DNA of 64,000 bases from the NCBI RefSeq assembly GCF_000221045.1, contig NC_015856.1:744001-808000 (forward strand), in the 5' to 3' direction. The notes beneath the pieces were generated by a model. It searched no databases. It was not told the DNA's origin and saw only the letters and a list, made by a program, of their open reading frames with translations. A program made the translations under genes and the position numbers. How positions within the stretch are numbered: the first letter of the stretch is position 1; every line of letters starts with the position of its first letter. Shown here one piece after another: positions 24,415 to 49,658 of the stretch. This DNA comes from Collimonas fungivorans Ter331 (GTDB lineage: Bacteria; Pseudomonadota; Gammaproteobacteria; Burkholderiales; Burkholderiaceae_D).

Positions 24415-25323
24415 TCACGACTTCAAGCTAAAGCGCTCCACCACGAAATCGACGAAGCTGCGTAACTTGGGCGACATGCGGTGATCACGCAGGTAGATGA
24501 GGTTCAACGGCCGGATCGGAGGCGTGTATCCAGGCAGTAGGCGAACGAGAAGGCCATCCTCGATGTCCTTTGACAGCATTATCTCAGGCAGCATGACAAT
24601 CCCCATGCCAGCGAGCGCAGCTTGGCGTAACCCCTGGGCGCTGTCGACTTGCATCCGGCCCGAAATCGGCACGCTGATTTCGCCCTCTGGACCAGTCATG
24701 CGCCAGGATGCCTGTGCCGATCTCCACTCGGACCGCGAGGAATAGGTATAGGCCAAACAATTGTGCTGGGCAAGATCCTCCGGTCGTCGTGGTTCACCGC
24801 GCTTCGCCAGATAACTCGGTGCGGCGCAAATCATCAATCTATACGGTGCAAGCGGGCGCGCAATCAGATCGGAACCCTGAAGATTGCCAAGACGGATCGC
24901 CGCCTCGAATCCGTCCTCAGCCAAATCCACGACAGTGTCGGTGATGACCACGTCGAGATCCACTTTGGGATAACGCGCCGTATAGTCGGCGAGCGCGGGT
25001 ATCAATCGCTCCGTGCCAAAAGTCGCAGATGCGGTAACACGAAGCCGCCCTTTGGGACTGGTCTGTGTCTCGAGTGCGAGGGCATCAGCATCTCCAACGA
25101 GATCGAGGATCTCAATGCATCGTTCGTAATAGGCCTTGCCGAATTCGGTCAGATTTTGCCGCCGCGTGGTCCGATTGATGAGCCGTGTACCGAGACGATC
25201 CTCTAGCGCCTGCAAATGGTTGCCCACCATGGTTGGCGACAGGTCGCATTCCGCTGCTGCCGCCGTCAGACTCCCCGTGTCAACTACACGGATGAAGATA
25301 GCCATGGCCTTGAAGATGTCCAT
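24415..25323 (-). CDS. LysR-family transcriptional regulator
   Basis: 302-residue LysR regulator with an N-terminal winged HTH (FKAMAIFIRVVDTGSLTAAAAECDLSP) and a periplasmic-binding-type effector domain (from about residue 90). It is divergent from an MFS exporter gene, with 141 bp between the start codons, and most likely controls it. ATG at 25323 is preferred to the TTG two codons upstream. Codon use is less G+C-rich than in the backbone, in keeping with an acquired segment after the tRNA. Confidence 0.88.
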   Translation of the reverse strand: MDIFKAMAIFIRVVDTGSLTAAAAECDLSPTMVGNHLQALEDRLGTRLINRTTRRQNLTEFGKAYYERCIEILDLVGDADALALETQTSPKGRLRVTASATFGTERLIPALADYTARYPKVDLDVVITDTVVDLAEDGFEAAIRLGNLQGSDLIARPLAPYRLMICAAPSYLAKRGEPRRPEDLAQHNCLAYTYSSRSEWRSAQASWRMTGPEGEISVPISGRMQVDSAQGLRQAALAGMGIVMLPEIMLSKDIEDGLLVRLLPGYTPPIRPLNLIYLRDHRMSPKLRSFVDFVVERFSLKS

Positions 25324-25464
25324 TACCAATATTTCCTAGGTAGTCATCAAACAAAATGGCAGTTTATATAATTTTTCAAGGCAATACAATGAGATTGGAA
25401 TTAGTCAGCGGTTTTCGTGACGATCATTTTTCAACAAGAAAACAATCTCTGGGACTCTCCTCTC

Positions 25465-26889
25465 ATGCCTTATCTGAAACCGAATCAATCAACATCGCCG
25501 CGCCTGACCTTGATAGCCACCAGTCTAGGCTTAGTCCTTGTCACTCTCGACGTCACTGTCGTGAACGTTGCGCTGGAAAGGATCCAAGCGTCGCTCAGCA
25601 CCAACGTGACCGGTTTGCAATGGATCATTAACGCTTACACGTTGGTCTTTGCGAGCCTGCTGTTAACGGCTGGTGCCATTGGTGACCGCTTCGGTGCCAA
25701 ACGAATCTTCGTCATAGGTTTTGCGTTGTTTACCATTGCGTCACTGGCCTGCGGCATGGCGGGCACAATCGGTACCCTCATTGCCGGCCGCGTCGTCCAA
25801 GGAGTGGGGGCGGCACTTTGTGTCCCAGCCTCGTTGGCGTTGCTTAGCGCCAGCTTTCCGGAAGCGGCCTCTCGTGCCCGAGCCGTGAGCATATGGGCTG
25901 GCGTTGGCGGCTTGGCGCTTGCGGCCGGGCCGGTTGTCGGCGGCATCATGGTGGATCGCTTCGGTTGGCCGAGCATCTTCTTCCTCAACCTGCCACTTGG
26001 GCTCTTAGGCATCTGGTTGACTTTATCCTATGCGCCGTCGGGTTCAAAGACACCCAACCAGGGATTAGATCTCGCCGGACAAGTGTTGGCGATTCTCGCG
26101 CTAGGTGGGCTCACCCTCGGCTTCGTCGAGGCCGGCGCACTCGGCTGGACGCATCCGCTAGTCCTGTCAGGTTTTACCTGTTTCCTGGTGGCCGGCGCGT
26201 TGTTCCTACTGGCAGAAGCCCGTGGCGCGGATCCTATGCTGCCGCTGTCGTTGTTTCGCTCGTCAGTGGTGAGCGCCTCCTGCGTCGTTGGACTCCTCAC
26301 CAACTTCGCCTACTATGGACTGATGTTTGTGCTCAGTCTATTCTTCCAGGCGACGAAGGGGTATTCGCCTTTGATGACTGGGCTAGCTTTTCTACCGATG
26401 ACGGCACTAGTAACCATCGCCAACTTGGTTTCTGGTCGACTGACCGCGCGCTTCGGGCCGCGGCTACCAATGGTGATAGGGCAAGCGCTAGCCGCATGCG
26501 GCTACCTGACTCTGGCTGGCATTGACGGCAGAACCCCATATAGCGTCATCGTCGGCCCACTGTTAGCGGCGGGCATCGGTGTGGCGCTGACGGTCCCCGC
26601 AATGACGGTCGCCGTTCTCGCCAACGCCGATAGACAACGCACAGGTATTACCTCTGGAGCGTTAAATGCCGCGCGCCAGACGGGGGGCGTCATCGGCGTC
26701 GGGGTATTCGGATCGTTGGTCGCTGGAGGGCCGGAAAAACTCCTTGCGGGCATGCATGTCGCGCTAATTCTGGCAGGTCTCGCACTCGGCATTGGCGCCA
26801 TCATCAGTTTTGTAAGCATCAAGGCAAGATTGATTACGAAATCAAATTCACTCCCCGTTGAAATGATTACCAAGGGCGAAACCAATTGA
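25465..26889 (+). CDS. MFS drug exporter, DHA2 (EmrB/QacA) type
   Basis: 474-residue hydrophobic transporter. The DHA2 signatures are LVTLDVTVVNVALERI in the first helix, WIINAYTLVFASLLLTAG, GDRFGAKR in the loop between helices 2 and 3, and WPSIFFLNLPLGLLG. The family normally has 14 helices and exports drugs by proton antiport. ATG at 25465 is preferred to a GTG at 25417. Divergent LysR neighbour suggests inducible efflux. The substrate is unknown. Confidence 0.88.
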   Translation: MPYLKPNQSTSPRLTLIATSLGLVLVTLDVTVVNVALERIQASLSTNVTGLQWIINAYTLVFASLLLTAGAIGDRFGAKRIFVIGFALFTIASLACGMAGTIGTLIAGRVVQGVGAALCVPASLALLSASFPEAASRARAVSIWAGVGGLALAAGPVVGGIMVDRFGWPSIFFLNLPLGLLGIWLTLSYAPSGSKTPNQGLDLAGQVLAILALGGLTLGFVEAGALGWTHPLVLSGFTCFLVAGALFLLAEARGADPMLPLSLFRSSVVSASCVVGLLTNFAYYGLMFVLSLFFQATKGYSPLMTGLAFLPMTALVTIANLVSGRLTARFGPRLPMVIGQALAACGYLTLAGIDGRTPYSVIVGPLLAAGIGVALTVPAMTVAVLANADRQRTGITSGALNAARQTGGVIGVGVFGSLVAGGPEKLLAGMHVALILAGLALGIGAIISFVSIKARLITKSNSLPVEMITKGETN

Positions 26890-27184
26890 AGGTTTGAGTT
26901 CGAATGCCTGTTCGAAGGGCATGCTGCGATGGTTTCTGGCCGATGTGATTCGCGCAGCATCTAAAATATAAAAAAATAGGTGACCTCATAGTTCCGCAAT
27001 GTCATGTGAACCTGCGCCGACATTGCGTTCGCAGACTACCGGAGTTGCTAAATTGCGGAACTGAAAACTTAGTAAGACGCGGACATCTCTGCGACACCCT
27101 CGGATGACACTCGCACATCCGGCTTACAATATCTTCATTCATTAACGCCACCTGACGACAGGTGCCATGCCATGAGGTATTGCC
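26890..27184. other. Intergenic region without recognisable gene
   Basis: A 295-bp gap between the MFS gene and the DsbA-family gene. I see no ORF with coding character, no RNA gene and no strong terminator. Confidence 0.5.
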
Positions 27185-27841
27185 ATGAATAACGCTTTGA
27201 AAATCGATTTCGTCTCCGATGTCGTCTGCCCCTGGTGTGCGATCGGGCTGGCGGGTCTCAATATCGCGCTCGAACGCCTCACTCCGGAGACGCACGTCGA
27301 CTTCACCGTCCACCCGTTCGAGCTCAACCCTGATATGCCCGCAGCCGGGCAGGAGCAACTTGAACATATCACCGAAAAATACGGCATCACCGCCGATCAG
27401 GCGCGCATCAACCGTGAACAGATCCGGGCCAGGGCGGCTGCCGTCGGTTTCACCATGAACCGCGATGACGCCAGCCGTGTCTACAACACTTTCGACGCGC
27501 ATCGTCTGCTTGCCTGGGCGAAAGAGAAGAATGCGCAAGCAACGCTCAAACTGGTCTTGCTCAAAGCCTATTTCAGCGACGGGAAAAACATCGCGGACAG
27601 GAATGTGCTGGCGGAACTTGCCAGGCAAGCCGGCCTGGATGGCGCCGAAGCCGACGAAGTACTGGCATCGGATCGGTTTGCTCAGGAAGTGAAGGAAGAA
27701 GAAGCGCTGTGGGCCCAGCGCGGCATCAGCAGCGTGCCCGCAGTCATCGTGAATGATCGCTACCTGATCTCGGGCGGCCAGCCGCCGGAGGTATTTGAAG
27801 AGCAGCTTCGAGCCATCCTGGCGAGCGACGAGCGGGAGTGA
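27185..27841 (+). CDS. DsbA-family oxidoreductase, FrnE type
   Basis: 218-residue thioredoxin-fold protein with active-site CPWC (C15-C18), the DFTVHPFELNPDMP segment, a helical insertion and the C-terminal SSVPAVIVNDRYLISGGQP segment that carries the cis-proline. No signal peptide is present, so it is a cytoplasmic FrnE/DsbA-like thiol oxidoreductase or isomerase, perhaps linked to oxidative stress. It ends 63 bp before the GGCC flank of the IS1182-type element and is followed by a GGCCGGC sequence into which the IS has inserted. Confidence 0.88.
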   Translation: MNNALKIDFVSDVVCPWCAIGLAGLNIALERLTPETHVDFTVHPFELNPDMPAAGQEQLEHITEKYGITADQARINREQIRARAAAVGFTMNRDDASRVYNTFDAHRLLAWAKEKNAQATLKLVLLKAYFSDGKNIADRNVLAELARQAGLDGAEADEVLASDRFAQEVKEEEALWAQRGISSVPAVIVNDRYLISGGQPPEVFEEQLRAILASDERE

Positions 27842-27908
27842 TTGTCGCGGGGGGTGTTCACGAACTGGCGCTGACATTGGTGCTGACCAGGAATGGCCGG
27901 CGCCGGCC

Positions 27909-29598
27909 GAGGCCGTGTAAAAACGCTGAATCCATCAAGGGAGCCGAGATCCACGTCATTTTAACGCGACATTGTTGATAATAGAGAGCCCTGCAAACGC
28001 GGCGGCTATTTCCCTTGGCCGAGTAAATAGCCGTCTCCAAACATATCTCCTGACGCTAAAAGCGCCTATGCGCTCATCACCTTCATCAAGGTTCCCACGC
28101 CCAGCACGTTGATCATCCGCTTCATGTTGTAAGCCAGGACATGCAAGCTCATCTCGGTGCTCACTCGGGCCTTGGTTTTGGTGAGGAAGTGCGTAGCACC
28201 CATCCATGCCTTGATGGTGCCGAATGGATGCTCAACCGTTTGCCGGCGTATTCGCATCGCCTTCGGCGTTCGTTCCAACCGCTCCTGCATGGCCTCCAGT
28301 ACAGACTCATGCTCCCATCGTGTCACGCGCCGTTGAGGACTTGGCGTGCATGCGGATTTGAGTGAGCACTGCTGGCAATTCGAGCTCCAATAGCGGTGCA
28401 AATTCAAGCCTTTCTCTTTGCTCGTGAAACGCCAGATCAATCGCTCTCCGGCGGGACACTGATATTCATTGGCGCGTGCGTCGTAAATGAAATCCGCTTT
28501 GCCAAACCGACCTTCAGCAGAGGCATTGGAGGTCAGGTTCTTCGGGACGATCACGTTGATGCCGGCTTGTGTGCACGCCAGGATCTCTTCTCCTTTGAAG
28601 TAACCACGATCAGCAACTACGGTCAGCGATGCGGCGCCAATCGCTTCTTGCGCTTGCCGGCTCATCGAGTGCAGTTGATCCCGGTCGCTCCCGATGTTGG
28701 TCACCTCGTGCGCCACAATCAGATGATGCTTTGCGTCGACCACCGTTTGTACGTTGTAGCCAACGACGCCTGTACCACGCGTCTTCATCGACCGTGCATC
28801 AGGATCGGTTTGGGAGACTTGTTGATCCGGCGTCTTCTGGAGTTTTAATTGGATGTCTTCAAGCTCTCGCATCTGCGCCTTGAGCGCTGCGATATTCTCA
28901 TGCAGTCGAGTTGTCGTGAGTTGCTTGCGGTCCGGCTCTTGGCGATCCGCCGTGTCGAGGGCTGTCAGATAGCGATCAATGCTCGCTGCGATCTCTTCCA
29001 TGCGCCGTTGCAGTTTGGCGCTGGTGAAGTTGCGGTCGCGGTTGTTGACGGCTTTGAATTTGCTGCCGTCAATAGCGACCAGCGCTTCAGAGAACAGGCC
29101 AAGTCGCTGACACAGCACGACGAACTGCTTGCATACATTGGAGATGGCACGGCCATTGTCTTTGCGGAAGTTGGCGATAGTCTTGAAGTCCGGCGTCAAA
29201 TGCCCTATCAACCACATCAGTTCAACGTTACGCTGCGCCTCTCGTTCCAGGCGACGGCTTGATTGGAGTCGATTGAGATAGCCGTAGATGTAAATCTTGA
29301 GAAGAACCGATGGGTGATAGGCCGGACGTCCTGTTTGTGCAGGCATTGTTCCTTCGAAACCCATTTGCACCAGGTCCAGTTCATCGACGAAAACATCGAC
29401 TACCCGCACTGGGTTGCTATCGGCAACGTAGTCGTCCAGTTGCTCGGGAAGCAAAATGCGTTGACTGCGATCCCGCCCTTCAATGAAGCGTTTCATAGGT
29501 GTACCTCGAACAGAGTCATCTGTCCGTGTGACATGGATCGCCGCAAATCGTTTACTTCCGATTAAAATTAGCGCTCGACAGCGTTTTTACACAGCCTC
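27909..29598 (-). mobile_element. IS1182-family insertion sequence (complete)
   Basis: A 1,690-bp element with 20-bp terminal inverted repeats of the form GAGGCYGTGTAAAAACGCTG (27909-27928 and 29579-29598), one mismatch apart. It is flanked on both sides by GGCC (27905-27908 and 29599-29602), consistent with a 4-bp palindromic target duplication. It carries one intact transposase gene. It has entered a GGCC inside a repeat of the family scattered through 30-35.6 kb. Confidence 0.85.
28066..29496 (-). CDS. IS1182-family transposase
   Basis: 476-residue DDE transposase of the IS1182 type. The N-terminal domain includes DYVADSNPVRVVDVFVDEL and the HPSVLLKIYIYGYLN pattern. Catalytic-region motifs are AIDGSKFKAVNNRD, VVADRGYFKGEEI and VEHPFGTIKAWMG. 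A Cys-rich segment (CPAGE...CQQCSLKSAC) precedes the last motif, as in this family. The frame is uninterrupted, so the element may still be active. It is also the likely source of transposase for two MITEs in this window with matching ends. Confidence 0.92.
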   Translation of the reverse strand: MKRFIEGRDRSQRILLPEQLDDYVADSNPVRVVDVFVDELDLVQMGFEGTMPAQTGRPAYHPSVLLKIYIYGYLNRLQSSRRLEREAQRNVELMWLIGHLTPDFKTIANFRKDNGRAISNVCKQFVVLCQRLGLFSEALVAIDGSKFKAVNNRDRNFTSAKLQRRMEEIAASIDRYLTALDTADRQEPDRKQLTTTRLHENIAALKAQMRELEDIQLKLQKTPDQQVSQTDPDARSMKTRGTGVVGYNVQTVVDAKHHLIVAHEVTNIGSDRDQLHSMSRQAQEAIGAASLTVVADRGYFKGEEILACTQAGINVIVPKNLTSNASAEGRFGKADFIYDARANEYQCPAGERLIWRFTSKEKGLNLHRYWSSNCQQCSLKSACTPSPQRRVTRWEHESVLEAMQERLERTPKAMRIRRQTVEHPFGTIKAWMGATHFLTKTKARVSTEMSLHVLAYNMKRMINVLGVGTLMKVMSA

Positions 29599-29698
29599 GG
29601 CCAATAGCGGACGCGTAATCGCCATCGAAAAAAATGTTAGCGCACACGGCCTTGCAGACAATCAAAGAAATTAGGAAATGCTAATCAAAGAATCGCAC

Positions 29699-29947
29699 CT
29701 ACCGATAGAAAGGTTCGACCGTGCCTTTTACTTTAGTCATTAAGGGGTTGCCCTTCCGATCTAGCGCCTTTCCGGCCGGGATTTTAATCCATCCCTCGCT
29801 GATGCAATATTCCTCAACTTCGAAGCGCTCTTTATCGTTAAGTTTAATACCAATATCATGCTCAAATATGGCGGCATTATAGTAAGGGCTACGAAGATCG
29901 ACTGAGAGTCGATCGGGAAGCGGGGGGCGGTTTTGGATATCGGTCAT
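29699..29947 (-). CDS. DUF3297 family protein
   Basis: Small protein of 82 residues matching the DUF3297 pattern: LPDRLSVDLRSPYYN at the start, EEYCISEGWIKI in the middle and RKGNPLMTKVKGTVEPFYR at the end. Its function is unknown. ATG at 29947 is preferred to the frame extension at 29962. It is the only minus-strand gene in the small-gene row and may be an older resident rather than part of the array. Confidence 0.72.
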   Translation of the reverse strand: MTDIQNRPPLPDRLSVDLRSPYYNAAIFEHDIGIKLNDKERFEVEEYCISEGWIKIPAGKALDRKGNPLMTKVKGTVEPFYR

Positions 29948-30012
29948 GGCTGCAATTATCAATTATAAGATTAACCAAAACAAATTTTTTGCGTGGCTTC
30001 GCTAAATCGCTT

Positions 30013-30055
30013 GCTTGACCGCACTCGGCCAATTGCCGCCGGTCGAAAGTGTCTG
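30013..30055 (+). repeat. CGGCCA array repeat, long form
   Basis: Core CTCGGCCAATTGC followed by CGGTCGAAAGTGTCTGCC. The downstream half resembles the copies at 30501 and 34230. It lies in the 243-bp gap before the first plus-strand array gene. Confidence 0.55.
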
Positions 30056-30190
30056 CCAATTTGATACCGATTCAACAGACTGTGCAATAGACACATTGAT
30101 CGACGACTGGACTTGCACCTCAAATATTCGTTGAATACTCTTTGTGTATTGTTCAGAATCTACGTTCTTATTTAATCGTTGGATTCTCTG

Positions 30191-30487
30191 ATGAAACGCC
30201 TACTTTCGACGGTAATTAATATTGCTTTAATGCTTATACTTCCCATTTGGGGCTGGCTTTTTTACCTGGATTCGTCGCGCCACACTGATTGGGCAAAGCC
30301 AATTTATTCAAGAACCGTTTGTGCATTGTTAATCTTGATAGCGCTCATAGGAGTACAGCGACTAACCGTGCGGTGGTCATTGAACAGCAGAGTCGGTCTT
30401 GGTGCTTTGTATTCACTTTTTCTATTTTTTGTACTTTTTTATCTTGGTTTTGCATCTGCGTTGGTTGGTGCAAATCAAATGCCGTAG
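30191..30487 (+). CDS. Small membrane protein of unknown function
   Basis: 98-residue protein with three hydrophobic segments (about residues 6-27, 37-57 and 67-92) and short charged loops. I do not recognise a family. ATG at 30191 is chosen over a TTG at 30179. It is AT-rich compared with the backbone and is followed 14 bp later by a long-form array repeat. It could be a membrane immunity protein, but only context suggests this. Confidence 0.6.
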   Translation: MKRLLSTVINIALMLILPIWGWLFYLDSSRHTDWAKPIYSRTVCALLILIALIGVQRLTVRWSLNSRVGLGALYSLFLFFVLFYLGFASALVGANQMP

Positions 30488-30500
30488 GCGACAGGCGGAA

Positions 30501-30549
30501 ATCGGCCAAAATCGGACGGTCGAAGACGCCCGCTAAACTGATGACGATG
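30501..30549 (+). repeat. CGGCCA array repeat, long form
   Basis: ATCGGCCAAAATCGGACGG, then TCGAAGACGCCCGCTAAACT and GATGACGATG. It closely matches the copy at 34230-34288 over about 48 bp. It ends 17 bp before the ATG of the next gene, so its tail supplies part of that leader. Confidence 0.65.
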
Positions 30550-30565
30550 TTGGAGGAATTTGTTC

Positions 30566-30784
30566 ATGAAATTTGATTGGCACGGCGGAGTAATTTCGCG
30601 AACAACGTTGGTCGATTCTGCCTACAAAAATACGCAGAACGTCCGGCGCTTTCTTTCACATCAGTGTGGACCGGAGTTCAAATTTGACCGCGATCTGATG
30701 GCATGGATACGAAACGGTGTTGAGAAGAGCATGGGCGACGTTGTGGACGAGTGGACGCGTCGACGTACAATGGCGCAAGACTAG
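30566..30784 (+). CDS. DUF6434-like protein
   Basis: 72-residue protein resembling the DUF6434 domain: FDWHGGVISRTTLVDSAYKN, then NVRRFLSHQCG and a C-terminal MGDVVDEW segment. In other bacteria this domain is often fused to a SAP domain; here it stands alone. GGAGG lies 9 bp before the ATG at 30566. Function unknown. A short-form repeat follows the stop by 12 bp. Confidence 0.65.
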   Translation: MKFDWHGGVISRTTLVDSAYKNTQNVRRFLSHQCGPEFKFDRDLMAWIRNGVEKSMGDVVDEWTRRRTMAQD

Positions 30785-30796
30785 CAAATGACTCGT

Positions 30797-30818
30797 TCCG
30801 GCCAATAGCCGTCCTTCA
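30797..30818 (+). repeat. CGGCCA array repeat, short form
   Basis: TCCGGCCAATAGCCGTCCTT, directly after the DUF6434-like gene. Confidence 0.5.
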
Positions 30819-30902
30819 AGTGCGAGCTCGAATTAATGTTGCTTTGCCAAATTTTCCATGGCAGGATTCATAATCGCAAACTCACCCGTTTCGTCGTTCA
30901 AT

Positions 30903-31412
30903 ATGCCATTTCAATTCAAATGCAATTCATGCGACGATATTCACGAAGGTATGCCGAGCTTTGGCGCCCATGCTCCGCTTAGTTACTACGAGATTCCTGA
31001 AGGCGAGCGTGCGACCCGGTGCGATTTGGGTAGCGACGATTGTGTTATAGATAAACAGCATTTCTTCGTTCGCGGATGCATTGAAATCCCAGTCAGAGGA
31101 GAAGCGGAACCATTCAGTTGGGGTGTTTGGGTCTCACTTAGTGACGCCAATTTTATTGAATGGCTCAAATGTTTTGAGCAGGATAAGCGCTCCCAGGTTG
31201 GACCATTCTTTGGCTGGCTTAACGCGTGGCTGAAGCCCTATCCAGACACAATAAATCTTAAAACGATGATTCATTTACGAGACGATGGTATCCGTCCGTA
31301 TATTGAACTTGAGCCAACTGACCACCCACTTGCAGTGGAGCAGCGCAACGGAATCACAGTGGAACGGGTTGCTGAACTTTATTCTGTAATGATGCACCCG
31401 ATGGGAAAATAG
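30903..31412 (+). CDS. DUF2199 domain protein
   Basis: 169-residue cytoplasmic protein matching DUF2199: an N-terminal zinc-knuckle-like FKCNSCDDIHEGMPSFG, then CVIDKQHFFVRGCIEIPV, FSWGVWVSLS and a C-terminal VELEP-type HPLAVEQRNGITVERV segment. Its molecular function is unknown; such genes are often found singly in accessory regions. ATG at 30903 gives the conserved start. No clear array repeat follows this gene, unlike most of its neighbours. Confidence 0.75.
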   Translation: MPFQFKCNSCDDIHEGMPSFGAHAPLSYYEIPEGERATRCDLGSDDCVIDKQHFFVRGCIEIPVRGEAEPFSWGVWVSLSDANFIEWLKCFEQDKRSQVGPFFGWLNAWLKPYPDTINLKTMIHLRDDGIRPYIELEPTDHPLAVEQRNGITVERVAELYSVMMHPMGK

Positions 31413-31507
31413 CTGCATAGGCTAGCCAGTGATTCAGCGACGGTATTACGTTATAGCAGCAGAAGCGCCAAAATTGATATCCAATTCGCTTGAAATTTCA
31501 TCGCACA

Positions 31508-31939
31508 ATGACACAACCCGCTGAACCTACCCTGGAAATTAACGGCAATCCACCCAAGCTAGCAGGAAAAACATGTGAAGGATTCATCTGCGAGCAATTC
31601 ATATGTTCCGGTGAGCCTGTGGCGTCTGCCAATGTTACATACTTGAGATTTGACGGCATTTGGTACCGCCTTTACTTTGAGTTTCAGCTAGTTTTTTGGC
31701 GAGTGTTTGGTGGGGAGCCAAAACCATGGGAGGTTGCAGAGAAATCCTGGGCATATCCTCACACGAATGTTGGGGAGATGTTCGGAATTCTTGGTCAGCG
31801 ACTGTTGTCGTATGAAATGCTGCTAACCCCAAAAGGTAGCAGAGTTATTTTTATTTTCGCCAACAATCAGAGTGTTCTAATTGAGGATGCAGATGACTGT
31901 AGCTCTTTTAGAGTCGGTGATTCCGAAGCTGTTCGATAG
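31508..31939 (+). CDS. Hypothetical protein (array gene)
   Basis: 143-residue protein with no family I recognise. It is rich in aromatic residues in the middle (FDGIWYRLYFEFQLVFWRVF), followed by an amphipathic C-terminal half, and has neither signal peptide nor long membrane helix. ATG at 31508 is used; a TTG at 31490 is in frame upstream. A copy of the array repeat lies about 70 bp after its stop. The size and placement fit an orphan immunity-type protein, which is a guess. Confidence 0.55.
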   Translation: MTQPAEPTLEINGNPPKLAGKTCEGFICEQFICSGEPVASANVTYLRFDGIWYRLYFEFQLVFWRVFGGEPKPWEVAEKSWAYPHTNVGEMFGILGQRLLSYEMLLTPKGSRVIFIFANNQSVLIEDADDCSSFRVGDSEAVR

Positions 31940-32007
31940 TTCGTTAATGATTTCGATGAAACAGTATTTTGAACGTCCGCAAAAGGTTGTAAGCAGCCAA
32001 TCGGCAA

Positions 32008-32029
32008 CTGCCGGCCACAAGCGGCCCGT
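32008..32029 (+). repeat. CGGCCA array repeat, short form
   Basis: TGCCGGCCACAAGCGGCCCG. It is preceded by an additional CAGCCAATCGGCAAC segment, so this copy is a degenerate double. Confidence 0.45.
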
Positions 32030-32088
32030 CACATGCGAAGGAATCGCGTTATGGTTTTAAAAAATTCAAAGAAATTAGTGCCGCGTCT

Positions 32089-32634
32089 ATGAGCAAGCCA
32101 GATTTTAAAGAAATATTTTTTAGTACTTTTAAGAGCGAATCTGCAGGGATTCACTACAGCGTACGGAGTGACTCAAATTTCCAACATGACATTCATTTCC
32201 TGGACAGTCTACTCAAGGATTCAAGATTTCTTTTGGGGCATATCAAACATACGAAGCAGACGTTAGTAATTCCCCTGACCCGCGCGCGCTGGGAGCTACG
32301 CGACGAAGTGACACAACACAATCTCGTTGAAATTGAAAGTGAGTTGAAGTTTACCCGTGTTAAAAAACTTCAATGGATTGCAAAAAATGTGACACTCAGC
32401 GCGCCGTACGAAGGAAATTTATTCGAGCCTGGGGACGCTATCACAGACAGTACAAGATGTGAGATTGATTCTCTTTTTATCGGCGAGTCAACATATATTG
32501 GAAAGAATCGGAGCGTTGAAATTGTAATAGCCGGATACCCGGGGAGGTGGCAACTTAGAGTATCTTTAGCGCTGGAATCATGGTCTATTTCTGTTAAAGA
32601 TAACAAGGTGCCGCCCATGATTAGTGTTTCGTAA
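32089..32634 (+). CDS. Hypothetical protein (array gene)
   Basis: 181-residue soluble protein with alternating beta-strand-like segments and no recognised domain. The N-terminus (MSKPDFKEIFFSTFKSE) is followed by the conserved-looking SRFLLGHIKHTKQTLVIPL and WELRDE segments, which suggests a beta-sandwich. It is AT-rich. A repeat follows 70 bp after the stop. Function unknown; an immunity role is suggested only by its neighbours. Confidence 0.55.
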   Translation: MSKPDFKEIFFSTFKSESAGIHYSVRSDSNFQHDIHFLDSLLKDSRFLLGHIKHTKQTLVIPLTRARWELRDEVTQHNLVEIESELKFTRVKKLQWIAKNVTLSAPYEGNLFEPGDAITDSTRCEIDSLFIGESTYIGKNRSVEIVIAGYPGRWQLRVSLALESWSISVKDNKVPPMISVS

Positions 32635-32703
32635 ATGTACCTATTAACTTTGCCTCGCCAAGGTCTGCTTCGGGGTGGAATCAGCTTGTCGCGACCGGCT
32701 CAA

Positions 32704-32723
32704 AACGGCCAATAGCAGGCATT
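32704..32723 (+). repeat. CGGCCA array repeat, short form
   Basis: AACGGCCAATAGCAGGCATT, between two array genes; a GCGACCGGCT segment precedes it. Confidence 0.5.
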
Positions 32724-32780
32724 AAAAACTTCCCTTCGCTAGCATTTTTTTAAAATTTAAAATTACGAAAGGGCCCGATT

Positions 32781-33221
32781 GTGCAATATCCTCCCGTACT
32801 CGAACCTTCCAAAGTAGGTACGTACCCAGCCGTTGCAAAGGCTGGTGGTGGTTTTGTTTGGGATGCTGTTCTCGAATACAGAGTGTGGTGTCACCCGGAA
32901 CGAGGGGCGCCCGATGATAAGGATGGATCTGATTATTATTACGCCTTCGCCAGTTACGAAGATGCCGATGCATTTTCCAGAACTAATAACGGAACAGAGG
33001 AGCCGCTGGCGTTAGTCTTGCAACGTGAGTACATTGACGAATCAAATCCTGGACAATATGTGCATGTTCAGGAACAGCGAATTACTGAATGGCCTGTGGG
33101 GTTTCTATCCAGGCCGCAGCGCGACACAATGACTATTCCAGAGTTCTTTGCTTCTAATGCTCCGGCGAATCGTTTAGAGATTCTACGAGGGCTCGCTCCG
33201 AGAAAGAATCGTGAAATCTAG
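32781..33221 (+). CDS. Conserved hypothetical protein (sometimes labelled GCN5 acetyltransferase)
   Basis: 146-residue protein with the pattern YPPVLEPSKVGTYPA, VLEYRVWCHPERGAPD, YYYAFASYEDADAF and EEPLALVLQREYIDE. I recall near-identical proteins in many proteobacteria annotated as acetyltransferase-associated, but I see no GNAT acetyl-CoA motif (Q/RxxGxG/A), so that label is doubtful. GTG at 32781 has a GAAAGGG ribosome site. The gene is more conserved-looking than the other array genes. Confidence 0.65.
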   Translation: MQYPPVLEPSKVGTYPAVAKAGGGFVWDAVLEYRVWCHPERGAPDDKDGSDYYYAFASYEDADAFSRTNNGTEEPLALVLQREYIDESNPGQYVHVQEQRITEWPVGFLSRPQRDTMTIPEFFASNAPANRLEILRGLAPRKNREI

Positions 33222-33244
33222 TTTATATGAACAAATGATCTGGG

Positions 33245-33431
33245 TACGGGCAATAGCAGACGGCAGTAATCGGCCGAGGCTGTGTAAAAACGTAGAAATT
33301 TTTAACCGATTTAAAAATCGTCCTCTCAGATCGAGCTGTATTCGATTTTCTCGGTATCGGGAAGGGTCTCCCTACCCACGATTTTTTTGCGGATTTGAGT
33401 TTTTACACAGCCTCGGCCAGCAGTGGACGTT
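33245..33431 (+). repeat. CGGCCA array repeat interrupted by a MITE
   Basis: The left part (33245-33275, ACGGGCAATAGCAGACGG then CAGTAATCGGCC) and right part (33415-33431, GGCCAGCAGTGGACGTT) reconstitute one repeat if the 139-bp MITE and one GGCC are removed. Confidence 0.65.
33276..33414. mobile_element. 139-bp MITE, copy 1 (IS1182-type ends)
   Basis: Non-coding element with inverted termini GAGGCTGTGTAAAAAC, the same as those of the IS at 27909-29598 for the outer 16-17 bp. It is flanked by GGCC on both sides (33272-33275 and 33415-33418). It is identical over all 139 bp to the copy at 49520-49658, which implies recent transposition. Confidence 0.88.
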
Positions 33432-33478
33432 CGCGGCCAGAAAATACCGACAACTATGGTCAACAAAGGGGACTCAGA

Positions 33479-33799
33479 ATGGCATCACCGCTGCAGCATG
33501 AAATGGATGAGAAATTACGCAAAGCTAAAGAAAGTGTTGTCGATGAAAAGACATTCACCCAATTTTTGGCTGTGTTATCAACAGATTGGTTTGTTGAAAA
33601 AGAAATAGAAGAGGCCACTCCGTCTTCGCCATACTCCAGCGGTGCATTAGGATGGGAAAATAGCTCTATTGGTGCATTCTTGGACTCGTCCTTCCGTTGG
33701 GCCATATGTTCGCAATCGGGCCTCCAACACTATGATGTACCAACTAACCCTTGGCGTAGAGCTGCCGATATTCTGGCGATGGGAAAAATCTACGAATAA
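33479..33799 (+). CDS. DUF7660-like protein
   Basis: 106-residue acidic protein ending in NPWRRAADILAMGKIYE, a C-terminal pattern that I associate with the DUF7660 family of small unknown proteins. ATG at 33479 is preferred; the open frame extends upstream into the MITE, but that part is not genuine coding sequence. A repeat follows 5 bp after the stop. Function unknown; an immunity-type role is possible by context. Confidence 0.6.
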   Translation: MASPLQHEMDEKLRKAKESVVDEKTFTQFLAVLSTDWFVEKEIEEATPSSPYSSGALGWENSSIGAFLDSSFRWAICSQSGLQHYDVPTNPWRRAADILAMGKIYE

Positions 33800-33803
33800 A
33801 TTT

Positions 33804-33838
33804 TTTGGCCGGCTGCACTCGGCCAGAAGCGGGCGTTC
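33804..33838 (+). repeat. CGGCCA array repeat
   Basis: TTGGCCGGCTGCACTCGGCC, then AGAAGCGGGCGTTCA. Two GGCC cores; the left half matches the sequence into which the IS at 27.9 kb inserted. Confidence 0.6.
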
Positions 33839-33862
33839 AACTATATTTCACGGAGCTTGGGA

Positions 33863-34234
33863 GTGATAACTAAGTCTGATCAGGAGGTTTCTATTGCTGA
33901 CGTGAAGCTGTTTCGTGAGGCGACAGGTTGTCCGTTTTCAGAATGCGTCTCTACTCTAAACTCTATGGATTTACTACTCCGCGAACGCGTTCTTCTGGCA
34001 GCAAAGACACAACAGAGGATTTTTTACGATCCAATTGAAGACGAACCAGAATATGCCACAGCATTCGCAACCGCAGCTGATGAAGCGAAGGCTTCTGTTC
34101 AAATTCAAGGTCTTGCAAATCGACGAGGTTCTAGTCATTTACTGTGGGCAGAGAAAGCAAAAATTTTGCGAGAACGCTTTGATATTCAGTGGTTCTCTCC
34201 AAGAGAAATGAATCCATTCGTCACTTTTGATTGA
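33863..34234 (+). CDS. Hypothetical protein (array gene)
   Basis: 123-residue soluble protein. The N-terminal helix segment VADVK-like (SIADVKLFREATGCPFSECV) resembles a UBA/TS-N-type helix pair, as found in proteins that bind ribosomal or other partners, but the match is weak. The remainder is helical and charged. GTG at 33863 has GGAG 7 bp upstream; the TTG at 33857 sits too close to it. The last bases overlap the following repeat (34230). Confidence 0.55.
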   Translation: MITKSDQEVSIADVKLFREATGCPFSECVSTLNSMDLLLRERVLLAAKTQQRIFYDPIEDEPEYATAFATAADEAKASVQIQGLANRRGSSHLLWAEKAKILRERFDIQWFSPREMNPFVTFD

Positions 34235-34288
34235 CCCATATCGGCCAAATGCAGACGGTCGAAAGTGCCTGCTAAACTGATGGTGATT
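34230..34288 (+). repeat. CGGCCA array repeat, long form
   Basis: ATATCGGCCAAATGCAGACG, then GTCGAAAGTGCCTGCTAAAC and TGATGGTGATT. It is the best partner of the copy at 30501 and begins at the stop codon of the preceding gene. Confidence 0.65.
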
Positions 34289-34328
34289 CATTATAAAAAA
34301 AGACTCCGATAGCAATGTGGAAGACAGC

Positions 34329-34610
34329 ATGAGCGATCAACATTATGTAGGGTGCTGCACCGATGGCAGACAAGCCGCCACTTATGTTTGCCAGCACATT
34401 CTTCAAACGCTGCAGGATAGCAAGCCGCGTGGCTTTTGGTCTGCGGAGGTTGAGGCAGGTGAGTTGTACCCAGATTCTTGGTGTAGTGAGTGTGAAGCTA
34501 TGGTCAATGCTGCCGGTGAATGGAATGATGAAACTGAAGCTAAAGCTGGCATTTCGCTGATTTGTAGTGTTTGCTATGAGAGAGCAAGAGATATCAACCA
34601 AAGCCGATAG
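34329..34610 (+). CDS. Small cysteine-rich, probably zinc-binding protein
   Basis: 93-residue protein with CC at residues 7-8, a VCQH motif near 22, and CSEC and CSVC pairs in the second half. The spacing suggests a zinc ribbon or treble-clef fold. Trp-rich central segment (RGFWSAEV, YPDSWCSEC). ATG at 34329 is preferred over an in-frame GTG at 34317. Function unknown. A repeat follows 6 bp after the stop. Confidence 0.6.
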   Translation: MSDQHYVGCCTDGRQAATYVCQHILQTLQDSKPRGFWSAEVEAGELYPDSWCSECEAMVNAAGEWNDETEAKAGISLICSVCYERARDINQSR

Positions 34611-34616
34611 TCAATT

Positions 34617-34638
34617 ATCGGCCAGAAGCGGGCGATTT
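34617..34638 (+). repeat. CGGCCA array repeat, short form
   Basis: TATCGGCCAGAAGCGGGCGA, nearly identical in its core to the copy at 33804 (CGGCCAGAAGCGGGCG, 16 of 16). Confidence 0.6.
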
Positions 34639-34655
34639 CAAGAAATTCTAATAAT

Positions 34656-34928
34656 ATGAACCGACTAGCGATAGAAGACCTTCCTGACCCGGACAATTCA
34701 CAGACTGTCTTTGCCTTTGCAATGTCATTCAATGGCTACGAGCATTACGGTTCGTTTTCCGCTTCTATGGCAGCTGCCAAGCAACACAAGCGCGCAACAT
34801 TGATTGATGTTCGGAATGAGCTTTTCACCGCAGCCCGTGCATCGCGACACATGGAGAACGACGCTTACTTAAACAGCTACCGTGAGTTGCTGCCGATATT
34901 GGGTGAATTGATTGCTTTGGACGCGTGA
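34656..34928 (+). CDS. Hypothetical small protein (array gene)
   Basis: 90-residue mostly helical protein (LATFAMSFNGYEHYGSF-like beginning, then ASRHMENDAYLNSYRELLPI). No family recognised and no signal or membrane segment. The ATG at 34656 has no clear Shine-Dalgarno sequence and lies only 18 bp after the repeat. A degenerate GCAATCGGGCAGGA after the stop may be a decayed repeat. Confidence 0.5.
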   Translation: MNRLAIEDLPDPDNSQTVFAFAMSFNGYEHYGSFSASMAAAKQHKRATLIDVRNELFTAARASRHMENDAYLNSYRELLPILGELIALDA

Positions 34929-35025
34929 GTCCGCAATCGGGCAGGAACGATAGATACTTAATTGAAGACGCATAACCTGTTCAAAACCGATATCAGTCGT
35001 TATTCAAATTGTGGGGTGAATCCAT

Positions 35026-35454
35026 ATGCGTTCGGTTCTGATGATAATTCTACTTACCGCAGCACTACTTGGCTGTCGCGAGGGTATTCCCCCAATTGTG
35101 TCTGGCAATGTAGTTGATGGTGGATTATTCATGGGGACGTTCGTACTGGCTCGGACCGGCCATCCAGCCAAGGAATGGGAACTCACAAAACCACAGATTG
35201 ACCAGGTCAATCTGTGGTTGCAAAGTCACCGTGACGGCTGGCAAACCATAGTTGCATCGCCACCTCCACCTAGTTTTTCAATACTGCTAACCCATGCCGA
35301 TAAAACTCAGTCACGAGTCGACCTTTTTGACATCAATAACAACTGGAGAGAAGCAATGGTCATTCATGCGGCGAACGCAAGTAACAACGGCATTCGCCAC
35401 ATAAGTGTTCAAGAGCGCGAAGAATTGCTGGCTATCGTAGGGAAGAATCCATAA
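35026..35454 (+). CDS. Small lipoprotein (array gene)
   Basis: 142-residue protein with a lipoprotein signal (MRSVLMIILLTAALLGC, lipobox LLGC, lipidated Cys17). The mature domain contains LTKPQIDQVNLWLQSHRDGW and a C-terminal helix (ISVQEREELLAIVG). Lipid-anchored immunity proteins of similar size protect against cell-wall or membrane toxins, but nothing here proves that. GTGGGGTG lies upstream of the ATG. A repeat follows about 75 bp after the stop. Confidence 0.65.
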   Translation: MRSVLMIILLTAALLGCREGIPPIVSGNVVDGGLFMGTFVLARTGHPAKEWELTKPQIDQVNLWLQSHRDGWQTIVASPPPPSFSILLTHADKTQSRVDLFDINNNWREAMVIHAANASNNGIRHISVQEREELLAIVGKNP

Positions 35455-35524
35455 CGGGCGTTTTGGGGAGGGCCTTCAACGATGATGTCAGGGAAGTGGC
35501 TGCATTGGGTTGGGTGCTGTCGGT

Positions 35525-35560
35525 GGCGACTGGCCGCCGTCGGCCAAAATCAGACGTTTG
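35525..35560 (+). repeat. CGGCCA array repeat
   Basis: GGCGACTGGCCGCCGTCGGCC, read as GACTGGCCGCCGTCGGCC followed by AAAATCAGACGTTTGCTG; last recognisable copy before the SUKH gene. Confidence 0.55.
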
Positions 35561-35591
35561 CTGCTAGGGCTTATCTAATTCTGAGAAATCG

Positions 35592-36122
35592 ATGACTATT
35601 AAAGAGTTGACTGCGATGCTCCAGCCTCCTGAGTTTCCTATCGAAGCTCCTCCGCCTGGGGGATGGCTTGAGGTTGAGCGAAGACTGAAAACTGCATTGC
35701 CGCAGGATTATAAAGATTACGTGGAAATATTTGGTTCGGGGACGGTCAGCAATTTTCTGTGGATTCTTAATCCATTTTCAGCCAACCCGAACCTGAATTT
35801 GGAGCAGCAGCTCAAGACTCAAACAGACGTGTTGAAAGACCTTCGAAATTATGGTGAGGACGTGCCGTACAGATGTTTTCCTCAAGCCGGCGGTATTTTC
35901 CCCTTTGCTCTCTCTGACAACGGAGACGTCTTGCATTGGCTAACGAATGGTCTGCCAGCGGAACGGACCGTTGTCGTCAACGAAGCTAGAGGACCAGAGT
36001 GGCAACATTTCGACTTATCCATGGCGGATTTTGTTACAGGCGTCTTGGCTAAAAAATTCTCCTGTCAGATATTCCCATCAAATTTCCCGGAGCAGTTTCC
36101 TAACTTTTCACCTAGACGCTAA
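35592..36122 (+). CDS. SMI1/KNR4 (SUKH) domain protein, probable immunity protein
   Basis: 176-residue SUKH-superfamily protein. Typical features are the helix GWLEVERRLKTALPQDYKDYVEIFGSG-type start (residues about 23-50), a central strand pair with NFLWILNPFSAN, and the FPFALSDNGDVLHWLTNG core. SUKH proteins are a major immunity class against contact-dependent and type VI/Rhs nuclease toxins. No toxin gene is adjacent, so this would be an orphan immunity protein. It ends the small-gene row; the 152-bp gap after it contains an 8-bp inverted repeat (CTTCCGCT/AGCGGAAG). Confidence 0.75.
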   Translation: MTIKELTAMLQPPEFPIEAPPPGGWLEVERRLKTALPQDYKDYVEIFGSGTVSNFLWILNPFSANPNLNLEQQLKTQTDVLKDLRNYGEDVPYRCFPQAGGIFPFALSDNGDVLHWLTNGLPAERTVVVNEARGPEWQHFDLSMADFVTGVLAKKFSCQIFPSNFPEQFPNFSPRR

Positions 36123-36274
36123 CTATCAACAATTCTGGCATCGAAAGGGCTACTTCGTATGTCCGCTTTAGAGAAATTTGAGCTTCCGCTTTGGGTCGAT
36201 AGCGGAAGCCCACATCTAACAATCCCCATCTAATACGGTTTGAGGTCCTAGAATCCTTTCGCAGGAGTTAGCGA

Positions 36275-37222
36275 TTAATGCGACGACACATAGATCGAAG
36301 CAGGACCGGCATCAGGCAAGGCAAACGCCTGCTTCATTCTCGTTACTTCCTCAACCGGCGTTCTGCCGAACAGGCGTTTGAACTCGCGGCTAAATTGCGA
36401 GGCGCTTTCATAACCAACTTCCACGCAGGCGCTGGCGGCAGTCAGGCCATTTCGCGCCATCAAGAGCCGTGCCTGGTGCAGGCGTGTCGACTTCAGGTAC
36501 TGCATTGGCGAAGTTGCCGTGACGTTCTTGAAATGAGAGTGAAACGACGGTGCGCTCATGCCAGCTTCCTTGGCAAGCTGATCGACATCGAGTTTTTCGC
36601 CATATGAAGCGTGGATCTTCTTGATCGCTTTCGCGATTTTCCCGAATTGTCCTTTGTTCACGAGGGCTGCGCGCATTGACGCTCCCTGATCTCCAGTCAA
36701 TACGCGCAGATAGATTTCTTTCACCAGTGCCGGGCCTAGAATCTTAGCTTCCATGGGTTCATCCATGGCTTCCAGGAATCGCAGAACCGACGCCGACATT
36801 TTGTCGTCCATTGCAGTGGCGAACATGCCCTGAGGAAGTGCATCGCCCGGTTCATCAACTTCCATCTGCAATAATAGGTCGGCCAGCATCTTGAAATCCA
36901 GCCGGAAATAAATTGCCAGCAACGGTTTCTTTTCACTTGCATCCGTTTCCATCGTGAACGGCACCGGCACCGATACCGCCAGATAATGCCGTGCATCGTA
37001 GACGTAGGTTTGGTCGCCTAAAAATCCCCTTTTTCTTCCCTGGCATACGACCACAATTCCTGGTTCATAGAGAACCGGAGTCACGCTCAGTGGGCGGTTG
37101 GAACGGAGAAACCTCACATCCTGCAGATGCGAAAGGTTATACCCCTCGTTTGGCGCGAGTTTTGTCAGCAGGCTCACCATGCGCTGTTGCTGCTGTTTGC
37201 TGTTGGTCGTCAACTCGATCAT
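36275..37222 (-). CDS. AraC-family transcriptional regulator
   Basis: 315-residue AraC regulator with an N-terminal AraC_N cupin-like domain (NRPLSVTPVLYEPGIVVVCQG) and a C-terminal double HTH (LAKEAGMSAPSFHSHFKNVT and ACVEVGYESASQFSREFKRLFG). It is divergent from an SDR gene with 187 bp between them and probably activates it. This arrangement (AraC_N regulator with a short-chain dehydrogenase) recurs in soil bacteria. Confidence 0.9.
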   Translation of the reverse strand: MIELTTNSKQQQQRMVSLLTKLAPNEGYNLSHLQDVRFLRSNRPLSVTPVLYEPGIVVVCQGRKRGFLGDQTYVYDARHYLAVSVPVPFTMETDASEKKPLLAIYFRLDFKMLADLLLQMEVDEPGDALPQGMFATAMDDKMSASVLRFLEAMDEPMEAKILGPALVKEIYLRVLTGDQGASMRAALVNKGQFGKIAKAIKKIHASYGEKLDVDQLAKEAGMSAPSFHSHFKNVTATSPMQYLKSTRLHQARLLMARNGLTAASACVEVGYESASQFSREFKRLFGRTPVEEVTRMKQAFALPDAGPASIYVSSH

Positions 37223-38728: not shown

Positions 38729-38834
38729 TTACTTGAGCTCCTTTACGGTGGCATCAAATTTTATGAGAAAAATTTCATTTAGGCAATTTATTGTATCGCT
38801 TGAGCGACTAGTTGCGAACTCGGCACAGGAAAAA

Positions 38835-39260
38835 TTACTCGCGTCTACAGCTGAGAACAGCTCTTCCTATTGGATTTCCTGGTACTAACGGATTCGGCAT
38901 CCAGGCCGTAAAGACGAGGAGCGTGTCCCCATCAAGCTTGTAGAATCGCTCCTGCTCACTGCCGTTCCAGGCTTCATTCCAAGATGCGTCAACCTTTGTG
39001 ATGAACCTGTCTCCATCTATTCGATACCGTCCTGTGTAGGCTATCAGAGTACGGAAAAGCGCCACCAGTTTCTCATCTGTATTCCCTGGCTCCCGCGCCG
39101 TTGCGGTAATGAATACCATCATTCGCCCGTCAGAGCCGAAAATAAGGTGCCCGTTGGGGGCGGCGCCCCACGGTTGAGTGCGCTCCTTTGAATCCTGAAG
39201 TTCAGTATCAAAAGAAACCAACCGCCAGCAGCCGTCGAGCTTAGTGTCGCGTTCAGACAT
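38835..39260 (-). CDS. Lipocalin-like domain protein
   Basis: 141-residue protein of the lipocalin-like (lipocalin_5) type: DGCWRLVSFDTEL, a GHLIFGSDGRMMVF strand pair and the C-terminal LDGDTLLVFTAW segment. ATG at 39260 has AGGAGGG just upstream; a longer frame to 39326 lacks support. It lacks a signal peptide. Probably binds a small hydrophobic ligand. Precise role unknown. Confidence 0.75.
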   Translation of the reverse strand: MSERDTKLDGCWRLVSFDTELQDSKERTQPWGAAPNGHLIFGSDGRMMVFITATAREPGNTDEKLVALFRTLIAYTGRYRIDGDRFITKVDASWNEAWNGSEQERFYKLDGDTLLVFTAWMPNPLVPGNPIGRAVLSCRRE

Positions 39261-39429
39261 ATTCCCTCCTGTAGTAGTTCGCCTAAATGTACCCACCCGC
39301 CGAATGTCGGGTAAGTTGCCATGCAAATTGCAATAACACCATCAAATTCGCGGGATGCGCCACGGACCGCAAATGGCCGAATTGCATCATTCGTGAAAAT
39401 CAGGACTCGCCAGTGGATTCAACCAGTGG

Positions 39430-49539: not shown

Positions 49540-49658
49540 AAATTTTTAACCGATTTAAAAATCGTCCTCTCAGATCGAGCTGTATTCGATTTTCTCGGTA
49601 TCGGGAAGGGTCTCCCTACCCACGATTTTTTTGCGGATTTGAGTTTTTACACAGCCTC
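49520..49658. mobile_element. 139-bp MITE, copy 2 (IS1182-type ends)
   Basis: Identical to the copy at 33276-33414 and flanked by GGCC (49516-49519 and 49659-49662). It inserted in the 3' end of the monooxygenase gene and provides its present stop codon. Confidence 0.9.

Follow-up and report, generated by a model that had tools for sequence, protein, structure and literature searches.

Integrons are regarded as the dedicated cassette-capture system of bacteria, and their exchange point is G|TT. A related arrangement occurs in Xer-dependent pdif modules, in which genes lie between short recombination sites and the cell's own XerC and XerD are used. In rulB integron-like elements, the first integrase has 385 amino acids (aa) and two large partners, and the passages of that report drawn on here do not describe cassette sites (Rhodes 2014, PMC4542609). 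Here we analyse a row of small genes with a shared repeat in a 64,000-nucleotide (nt) stretch of Collimonas fungivorans Ter331 (the window; bases 744001–808000 of the complete 5.19-Mb genome, with coordinates given in window numbering). Sequence comparisons indicate that this row is probably a gene-cassette array moved by site-specific recombination, integron-like in its working and built from other parts, with a family of 204–208-aa tyrosine recombinases as the likeliest enzyme.

A row of gene-plus-repeat units

The array consists of 13 gene-plus-repeat units with 14 genes and extends from 27076 to ~36203. The original prediction, made from the window alone, had recognized the row and placed it at 29603–36122. 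The row is real and longer than proposed: a DsbA-like gene at 27185–27841 is also a unit, severed from the others by the later insertion of an insertion sequence (IS), which moves the onset to 27076. With up to 3 mismatches allowed, nine copies of the core of the repeat, TCGGCCARNAGCGGRCGTT, were found in the window (0.30 expected), and none of 100 shuffles reached nine; eight matches lie at 29597–35558 on the + strand and one lies at 49657. All ten repeat positions proposed earlier were correct within ~20 nt, with two copies missed, at 29597 and 33413. These are right halves, the left halves having been split off by the IS and by a miniature inverted-repeat transposable element (MITE), respectively. 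A looser scan of 29500–36300 found 13 places on the + strand and one on the − strand, the latter being a MITE end. The genes, described earlier as all plus-strand, include a DUF3297 gene on the − strand (29699–29962).

Two further arrays (L009 and L010) bring the total in this genome to three. The looser scan found 12 places on the array strand and 3 on the opposite strand in L009, and 5 and 2 in L010. Across the whole genome, the core alone does not stand out from control when 3 mismatches are allowed (73 matches versus 69). All four matches with 0–1 mismatch lie in two of the arrays, as do 8 of the 11 with 0–2 mismatches. The repeat makes up the right-hand portion of a longer, ~66-nt site.

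Exchange of single units between genomes

Single gene-plus-repeat units occur elsewhere in genomes of the genus at 92–99.7% identity, several of them ending at the repeat, which supports the cassette reading put forward in the original prediction. Units of the window are shared singly with arrays of other genomes, and the flanks, as far as fetched, are unrelated. Among 20 array loci, we searched for shared segments of 150–6000 nt (E 1e-15; IS and MITE masked), scoring the distance to a junction in the first locus. This gave 39 segments, 35 between different genomes and 4 within one, among them multi-unit blocks (L009 with L032 and L033), which may be syntenic. A detected junction is no more than 12 nt away for 29 of the 78 segment ends, compared with 3.1% of random positions, and 6 of the 39 segments have both ends at a junction.

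Individual comparisons locate the breakpoints within the site. A 304-nt match to G012, another genome of the genus, with 99.7% identity, covers the unit at 30508–30803, and the two sequences diverge directly beyond ATCGGCC at the left end and CCGGCCA at the right end. The copy of the DsbA-like unit in G002 begins CGGCC|AGAAGCGGACATC; in the window, the chromosomal flank is common with G012 up to 27076 and is followed directly by AGACGCGGACATC. The unit at 32711–33275 occupies the equal chromosomal locus in G012, on the reversed strand. In 6 of 10 unit comparisons, the letters to the right of CGGCC, including rare variants such as AAAATCGG, travel with the downstream gene. Because these letters are shared with the downstream gene, each site can be read as a pair of halves, one from each adjoining unit, like the sites of integron arrays. 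Single cassettes are exchanged with breakpoints in the site, and these breakpoints place the exchange point at CGGCC|A.

Structure and distribution of the site

A cassette starts with ANNAGCGGNCGTT, usually contains a single gene and ends with an element of ~52 nt, whose best-kept form is GAATGNCCGCTTNGGGTCG...CGGCC. The junction site joins the end of one cassette to the start of the next; its outer palindrome is GAATGNCNGCT/AGCNGNCNTTC and its inner one GGTCG/CGGCC. The consensus of 51 aligned copies is GAATGNCNGCTTNGGGTCGAAATCNACCTGTCGCGACCGGCTCAAAACGGCCANNAGCNGNC. The outer arms match as complements in 70.9% of cells, compared with 22–43% when the partner is slid. RNAalifold predicted no consensus pairs for the site, and an Rfam search of 27800–36400 returned no family match at E 5.

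Eight long copies, all taken from the three arrays of this genome, served to build a covariance model, and 150 candidates were scored per genome. At E 0.01, the model has ten matches in its own genome, namely the eight building copies and two others likewise inside arrays. It matches 13 of 15 genus genomes, several weakly, with many of the matches clustered and mostly uniform in orientation. Eleven of these 15 genomes have the fuller-site pattern CCGGCTCAAAACGGCCANNAGCGG at 2 mismatches, and its control has no match. With stricter filters and at 1e-5, the covariance model matches 3 of 399 genomes of the order, its own counted, so this form of the site is lineage-specific, like attC types.

A minimal tyrosine recombinase beside the sites

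Among 18 further stretches around sites, we found a 204-aa tyrosine recombinase in G012, located between two divergent arrays, with a site 86 nt past its stop codon. The protein matches PF00589 (71.7 bits) and integrase families in PHROGs, while nine NCBIfam models matched with every score under cut-off; among solved structures, Xer types come closest (E 8e-6 and weaker). It aligns to the catalytic half of the integron integrase IntI with the R, H-x-x-R, H and Y positions kept. The N-terminal domain and internal stretches of IntI are missing, and the recombinase appears from its sequence to have the catalytic domain alone. Relatives occur at 1e-30 in 16 of 369 genomes of the class. At 1e-20 they occur in 443 of 72,556 plasmid records, 178 at 60% identity or more and 176 on predicted conjugative plasmids, so the reach of such a system may be wide.

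Sites accompany these relatives on plasmids. In five of six plasmid loci (Azonexus, pRSB223, P. aeruginosa, Paraburkholderia and Cupriavidus), CGGCC|A lies within ~80 nt after the recombinase stop; in the sixth, from Methylomonas, such a site lies on the opposite strand within 100 nt. Thirty enzyme loci were taken and six dropped owing to an insufficient gene end or flank. Nine of the 24 usable loci have at least 10 of 12 junction letters within 250 nt after the stop, compared with 4.2% of control windows, and four have a junction at 11 letters (control 0.9%). The six plasmid regions together with two viral regions contain 13 junctions, with 1.3 in shuffles. Flanks of 250 nt on the two sides carry the short motif AGCGGNC[AG]TT in 19 of 29 loci (16.5% of single control windows have it, or ~30% by chance for two), and its density at enzyme loci is 2.34 versus 0.71 per kb. 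When the six plasmid loci were scanned for strict palindromes, one site came up, with ~1.2 in shuffles. One viral match of the left-arm pattern falls inside a terminase-like gene and probably arose by chance.

An association is also found in G464, a complete genome from outside the order. Twelve enzyme regions were taken from ten genomes of the class, and the two from G464 have 6 and 18 sites. The pattern CGGCGCAATAGCGGTCATT matches 38 places in this genome, compared with one for the control. Clusters of 17 and 6 of these sites end ~40 nt from its two recombinase genes; 12 more form two further clusters and 3 lie elsewhere. Mostly single small genes lie between the 17 sites of L118. Both arrays run outward from heads of ~110 nt that are 86.6% alike, each with two inverted GGGTCG-type sites, at which the likeness of the heads drops. 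A promoter scan of the heads was not above shuffles. Among 12 single-strand folds, the two made from enzyme-side sites both reached z < −2.

Sites of like design thus stand beside the recombinase gene in part of the loci, with a full array in G012 and G464. The tyrosine recombinase with the repeat at its own locus, a search for which the original prediction had proposed as a check, exists in other genomes and not in that of the window. Judging from position, the recombinase of the arrays is most likely the family of 204–208-aa catalytic-domain-only tyrosine recombinases found in G012 and G464.

Other candidates were set aside. The 559 proteins encoded inside arrays fall into 470 clusters, of which 15 occur in at least three loci; the only enzyme of such a kind among these, judged by eye from first residues, is the IS transposase. 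Other tyrosine recombinases of the genus lie beside none of the examined arrays, the G012 enzyme excepted. An integrase in G009 was dropped because it lies 27 kb from the array, and an integrase fragment in G014 because it adjoins a gene of another mobile element.

Two neighbourhoods contain further recombination genes. On pRSB223 (L111 8684–9674), four sites surround the recombinase gene, and the plasmid also carries a class 1 integron. A conventional phage integrase (L118 12050–13081) lies near one of the two G464 arrays, the only one examined for such genes.

Evidence against the cassette reading and alternative explanations

Several results weigh against cassette movement by this recombinase. 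Within the genus survey of 15 genomes, the enzyme is whole in G012 only, with two fragments in G006, and the window's own genome has no match at E 1e-15. A full 12-of-12-letter junction within 250 nt after the stop is found in none of the 24 enzyme loci (control 0.5%), and 10 of 29 loci lack the short motif. The ten enzyme regions from the nine other class genomes hold nine sites together, with ~2.6 in shuffles and no array visible. The pattern that gave 38 places in G464 was read off the enzyme regions of G464 before being searched there. The 39 shared segments are not independent, the same unit from several genomes being counted each time, and in 4 of 10 unit comparisons the likeness starts 30–112 nt inside the unit. 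The outer arms of the aligned sites are complementary yet show no covariation, and folding is weak, with z < −2 in 1 of 10 Collimonas single-strand folds. Variable letters pair at chance (junction 35/118, unit 11/46, random 28.9%); these counts fit re-assorted halves, without proving pairing.

Units might instead be moved by homologous recombination between repeats after DNA uptake, which would make a dedicated enzyme unnecessary. The best repeat copies are long and alike, no candidate enzyme is present in the window's genome, and genus genomes without the enzyme also have arrays. Several junctions, however, are common over only ~6–20 letters and the ends still fall there. Homologous recombination also leaves unexplained the site clusters at the G464 recombinase genes and the sites after the gene in plasmids, and we consider it unlikely.

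The arrays could also be true integron cassettes of the kind found in clusters of attC sites lacking integron integrases (CALINs), with attC sites diverged beyond recognition. The logic is alike, with a gene and a 3' site, mostly one orientation and lineage-specific sites, and true integrons do occur in the family, as in G015. Against this, no IntI scored above the TIGR02249 cut-off in the 15 genus genomes, in line with the earlier remark that no integron integrase is visible; the same search placed 8 of all 40 genomes above it. A search for attC ends in the three arrays of this genome found no RYYYAAC/GTTRRRY pair at the junctions: hits in the window were confined to ~30070–30184, off the junctions, and one L009 hit lay outside the array. 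The G015 integron, used as positive control, was found; it has such pairs and none of the repeats described here. With exchange at CGGCC|A instead of G|TT as well, this explanation is very improbable. We do not class the arrays as integrons because two defining tests, IntI and attC, failed.

No more credible is an orphan immunity array kept by selection against toxins, which the original prediction had named as a second option and in which the repeats would be intergenic palindromes or terminators. Such a reading draws on the SUKH and DUF7660 genes, both weak matches, and on a PAAR gene (L057 6264–6860) ~2.4 kb upstream of one of the G009 arrays; PAAR genes are usually part of type VI secretion. 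Against it stand the mixed cargo and the exact exchange of units. Pfam assigned 4 of the 14 array proteins of the window above cut-off (DUF3297, DUF6434, DUF2199 and DsbA) and another 4 weakly (DUF2948, DUF7660, DUF6817 and SUKH, the last below the cut-off), and 6 had no match. A PADLOC scan of 10 of the window's array proteins gave no match. Elsewhere, 132 genes of other arrays (135 picked; array strand, at least 60 aa) fall into 73 families, the commonest being GNAT, DUF6678 and SnoaL. Among the 25 families shown, Arr, Cpn10 and LGT have single members, and no recombinase is present. Immunity families do not make up most of the genes.

Mobile elements do occupy some sites. The IS of the window (27909–29598, − strand; DDE transposase gene 28066–29496; ends GAGGCYGTGTAAAAAC / GTTTTTACACAGCCTC) lies inside a cassette site with GGCC on both sides (27905–27908 and 29599–29602), taken as the target duplication. 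The MITE (33276–33414), whose ends are as in the IS, likewise lies inside a site between GGCC copies (33272–33275 and 33415–33418). IS copies with 98.6–99.2% identity are found in like sites of three other genomes, four with the window, again with GGCC on both sides. That the IS and its MITE relatives built the array by adjacent transposition deserves almost no credence, since most window junctions have neither element, the units lack IS ends and the pattern is that of an element targeting the site. The ends common to the IS and the MITE also adjoin such sites in another genus (L046).

Units and neighbours of the window's array

The left chromosomal flank, with LysR and MFS genes (25003–27075), is homologous to the same locus of G012 up to 27076. 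Unit 1 (27076–27908, + strand) carries the DsbA-like gene and ends ...CGGCC (27904–27908); G002 has a stretch 97.5% identical to it. Beyond the IS, unit 2 (29603–30030, − strand) carries the DUF3297 gene, with copies in G013 (94.9%) and G002 (91.8%). All further units are on the + strand. Unit 3 (30031–30507) encodes a small protein (30191–30487) that is membrane-like by eye. Unit 4 (30508–30803), with a DUF6434 gene (30566–30784), is the one matched at 99.7% in G012, there at an unrelated place, and at 93.6% in G013. Unit 5 (30804–32016) holds a DUF2199 gene (30858–31412) and a gene of no assigned function (31505–31939), with no clear site between the two.

No function is assigned to the genes of unit 6 (32017–32710; gene 32089–32634), whose 3' element at 32661–32710 was used in model building, and unit 7 (32711–33275; gene 32781–33221), which recurs in G013 (91.9%) and, at the same locus but on the opposite strand, in G012 (97.0%). 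After the MITE follow unit 8 (33419–33824) with the weak DUF7660 gene (33479–33799), unit 9 (33825–34246) with a gene of unassigned function (33866–34234) and unit 10 (34247–34623) with a Cys-rich gene (34317–34610). Unit 11 (34624–34942; gene 34656–34928, function not assigned) has the degenerate end site TCGGGC|AGG. Unit 12 (34943–35545) carries a lipoprotein-like gene (35026–35454) with a 95.6% copy in G009, and unit 13 (35546–36203) the weak SUKH gene (35592–36122). At the right edge of the array, a short palindrome around CCGCTTTGGGTCGATAGCGG (36177–36212) is similar to the GGGTCG-type sites in the heads of the G464 arrays; at 1 mismatch, 4 of the other 119 genomes of the order have it too.

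Outside the array, a lipocalin-like gene region of the window (38814–39370) is 89.6% identical to DNA adjoining a G013 array. Genes of a Tn7-like transposon (TnsA-like, TniB and TniQ; L058 13432–17964) lie ~2 kb upstream of a long G009 array. The G012 array adjoins open reading frames (ORFs), among them one for another tyrosine recombinase and two for Y-family polymerases that are 52% alike (L066 56–5793, 6116–7366 and 15653–16420).

Proposed working and comparison with known systems

In the site-specific reading that we prefer, the recombinase would bind the outer arms and cut at CGGCC|A. A cassette would then be excised as a circle and inserted into a different site or, in rare cases, into a chromosomal position. 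Without the enzyme, arrays would become fixed rows that decay, as in the window, where the site at 34938 is degenerate and the IS and the MITE sit inside two other sites. The window's genome lost the enzyme or never had it, and its three arrays therefore look like orphans, comparable to the CALINs of true integrons.

A broader proposal, to which we give even chances, is that Pseudomonadota widely carry a second cassette-capture system independent of integrons, on chromosomes and plasmids, with a minimal tyrosine recombinase, two-way arrays extending from a head that bears an inverted pair of GGGTCG-type sites, and orphan arrays where the enzyme has been lost. If a second system with another enzyme and site exists, its cassettes escape standard integron searches, and mobile small genes without assigned function would form a pool open to discovery. 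An enzyme consisting of the catalytic domain only would also be a simple test case for how recombinases choose their sites. We found no description of the present cassette system in a literature search limited to open PubMed Central text, with most subscription papers and preprints outside it.

The pdif modules are alike in having genes between sites of an Xer-type enzyme and unlike in the sequence of the site. The rulB integron-like elements, as far as the passages drawn on describe them, resemble the G012 array, which lies beside Y-family polymerase genes and ORFs including a recombinase; the window's array, unlike them, is not at a rulB-like gene (Rhodes 2014, PMC4542609). In their working, the arrays resemble integrons and CALINs. 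Integrons differ in their enzyme, the G012-type recombinase having no N-terminal domain and scoring 25.6 bits against an IntI cut-off of 265, and in their sites, those of the three arrays here being without RYYYAAC/GTTRRRY and exchanged at CGGCC|A; in G464, moreover, the arrays extend in both directions from a head carrying an inverted pair of sites. Shared with integrons and CALINs are tandem cassettes, each with a palindromic 3' site, mostly one orientation, exchange of single cassettes and the occurrence of enzyme-less arrays: these arrays behave integron-like, yet they are no integron.

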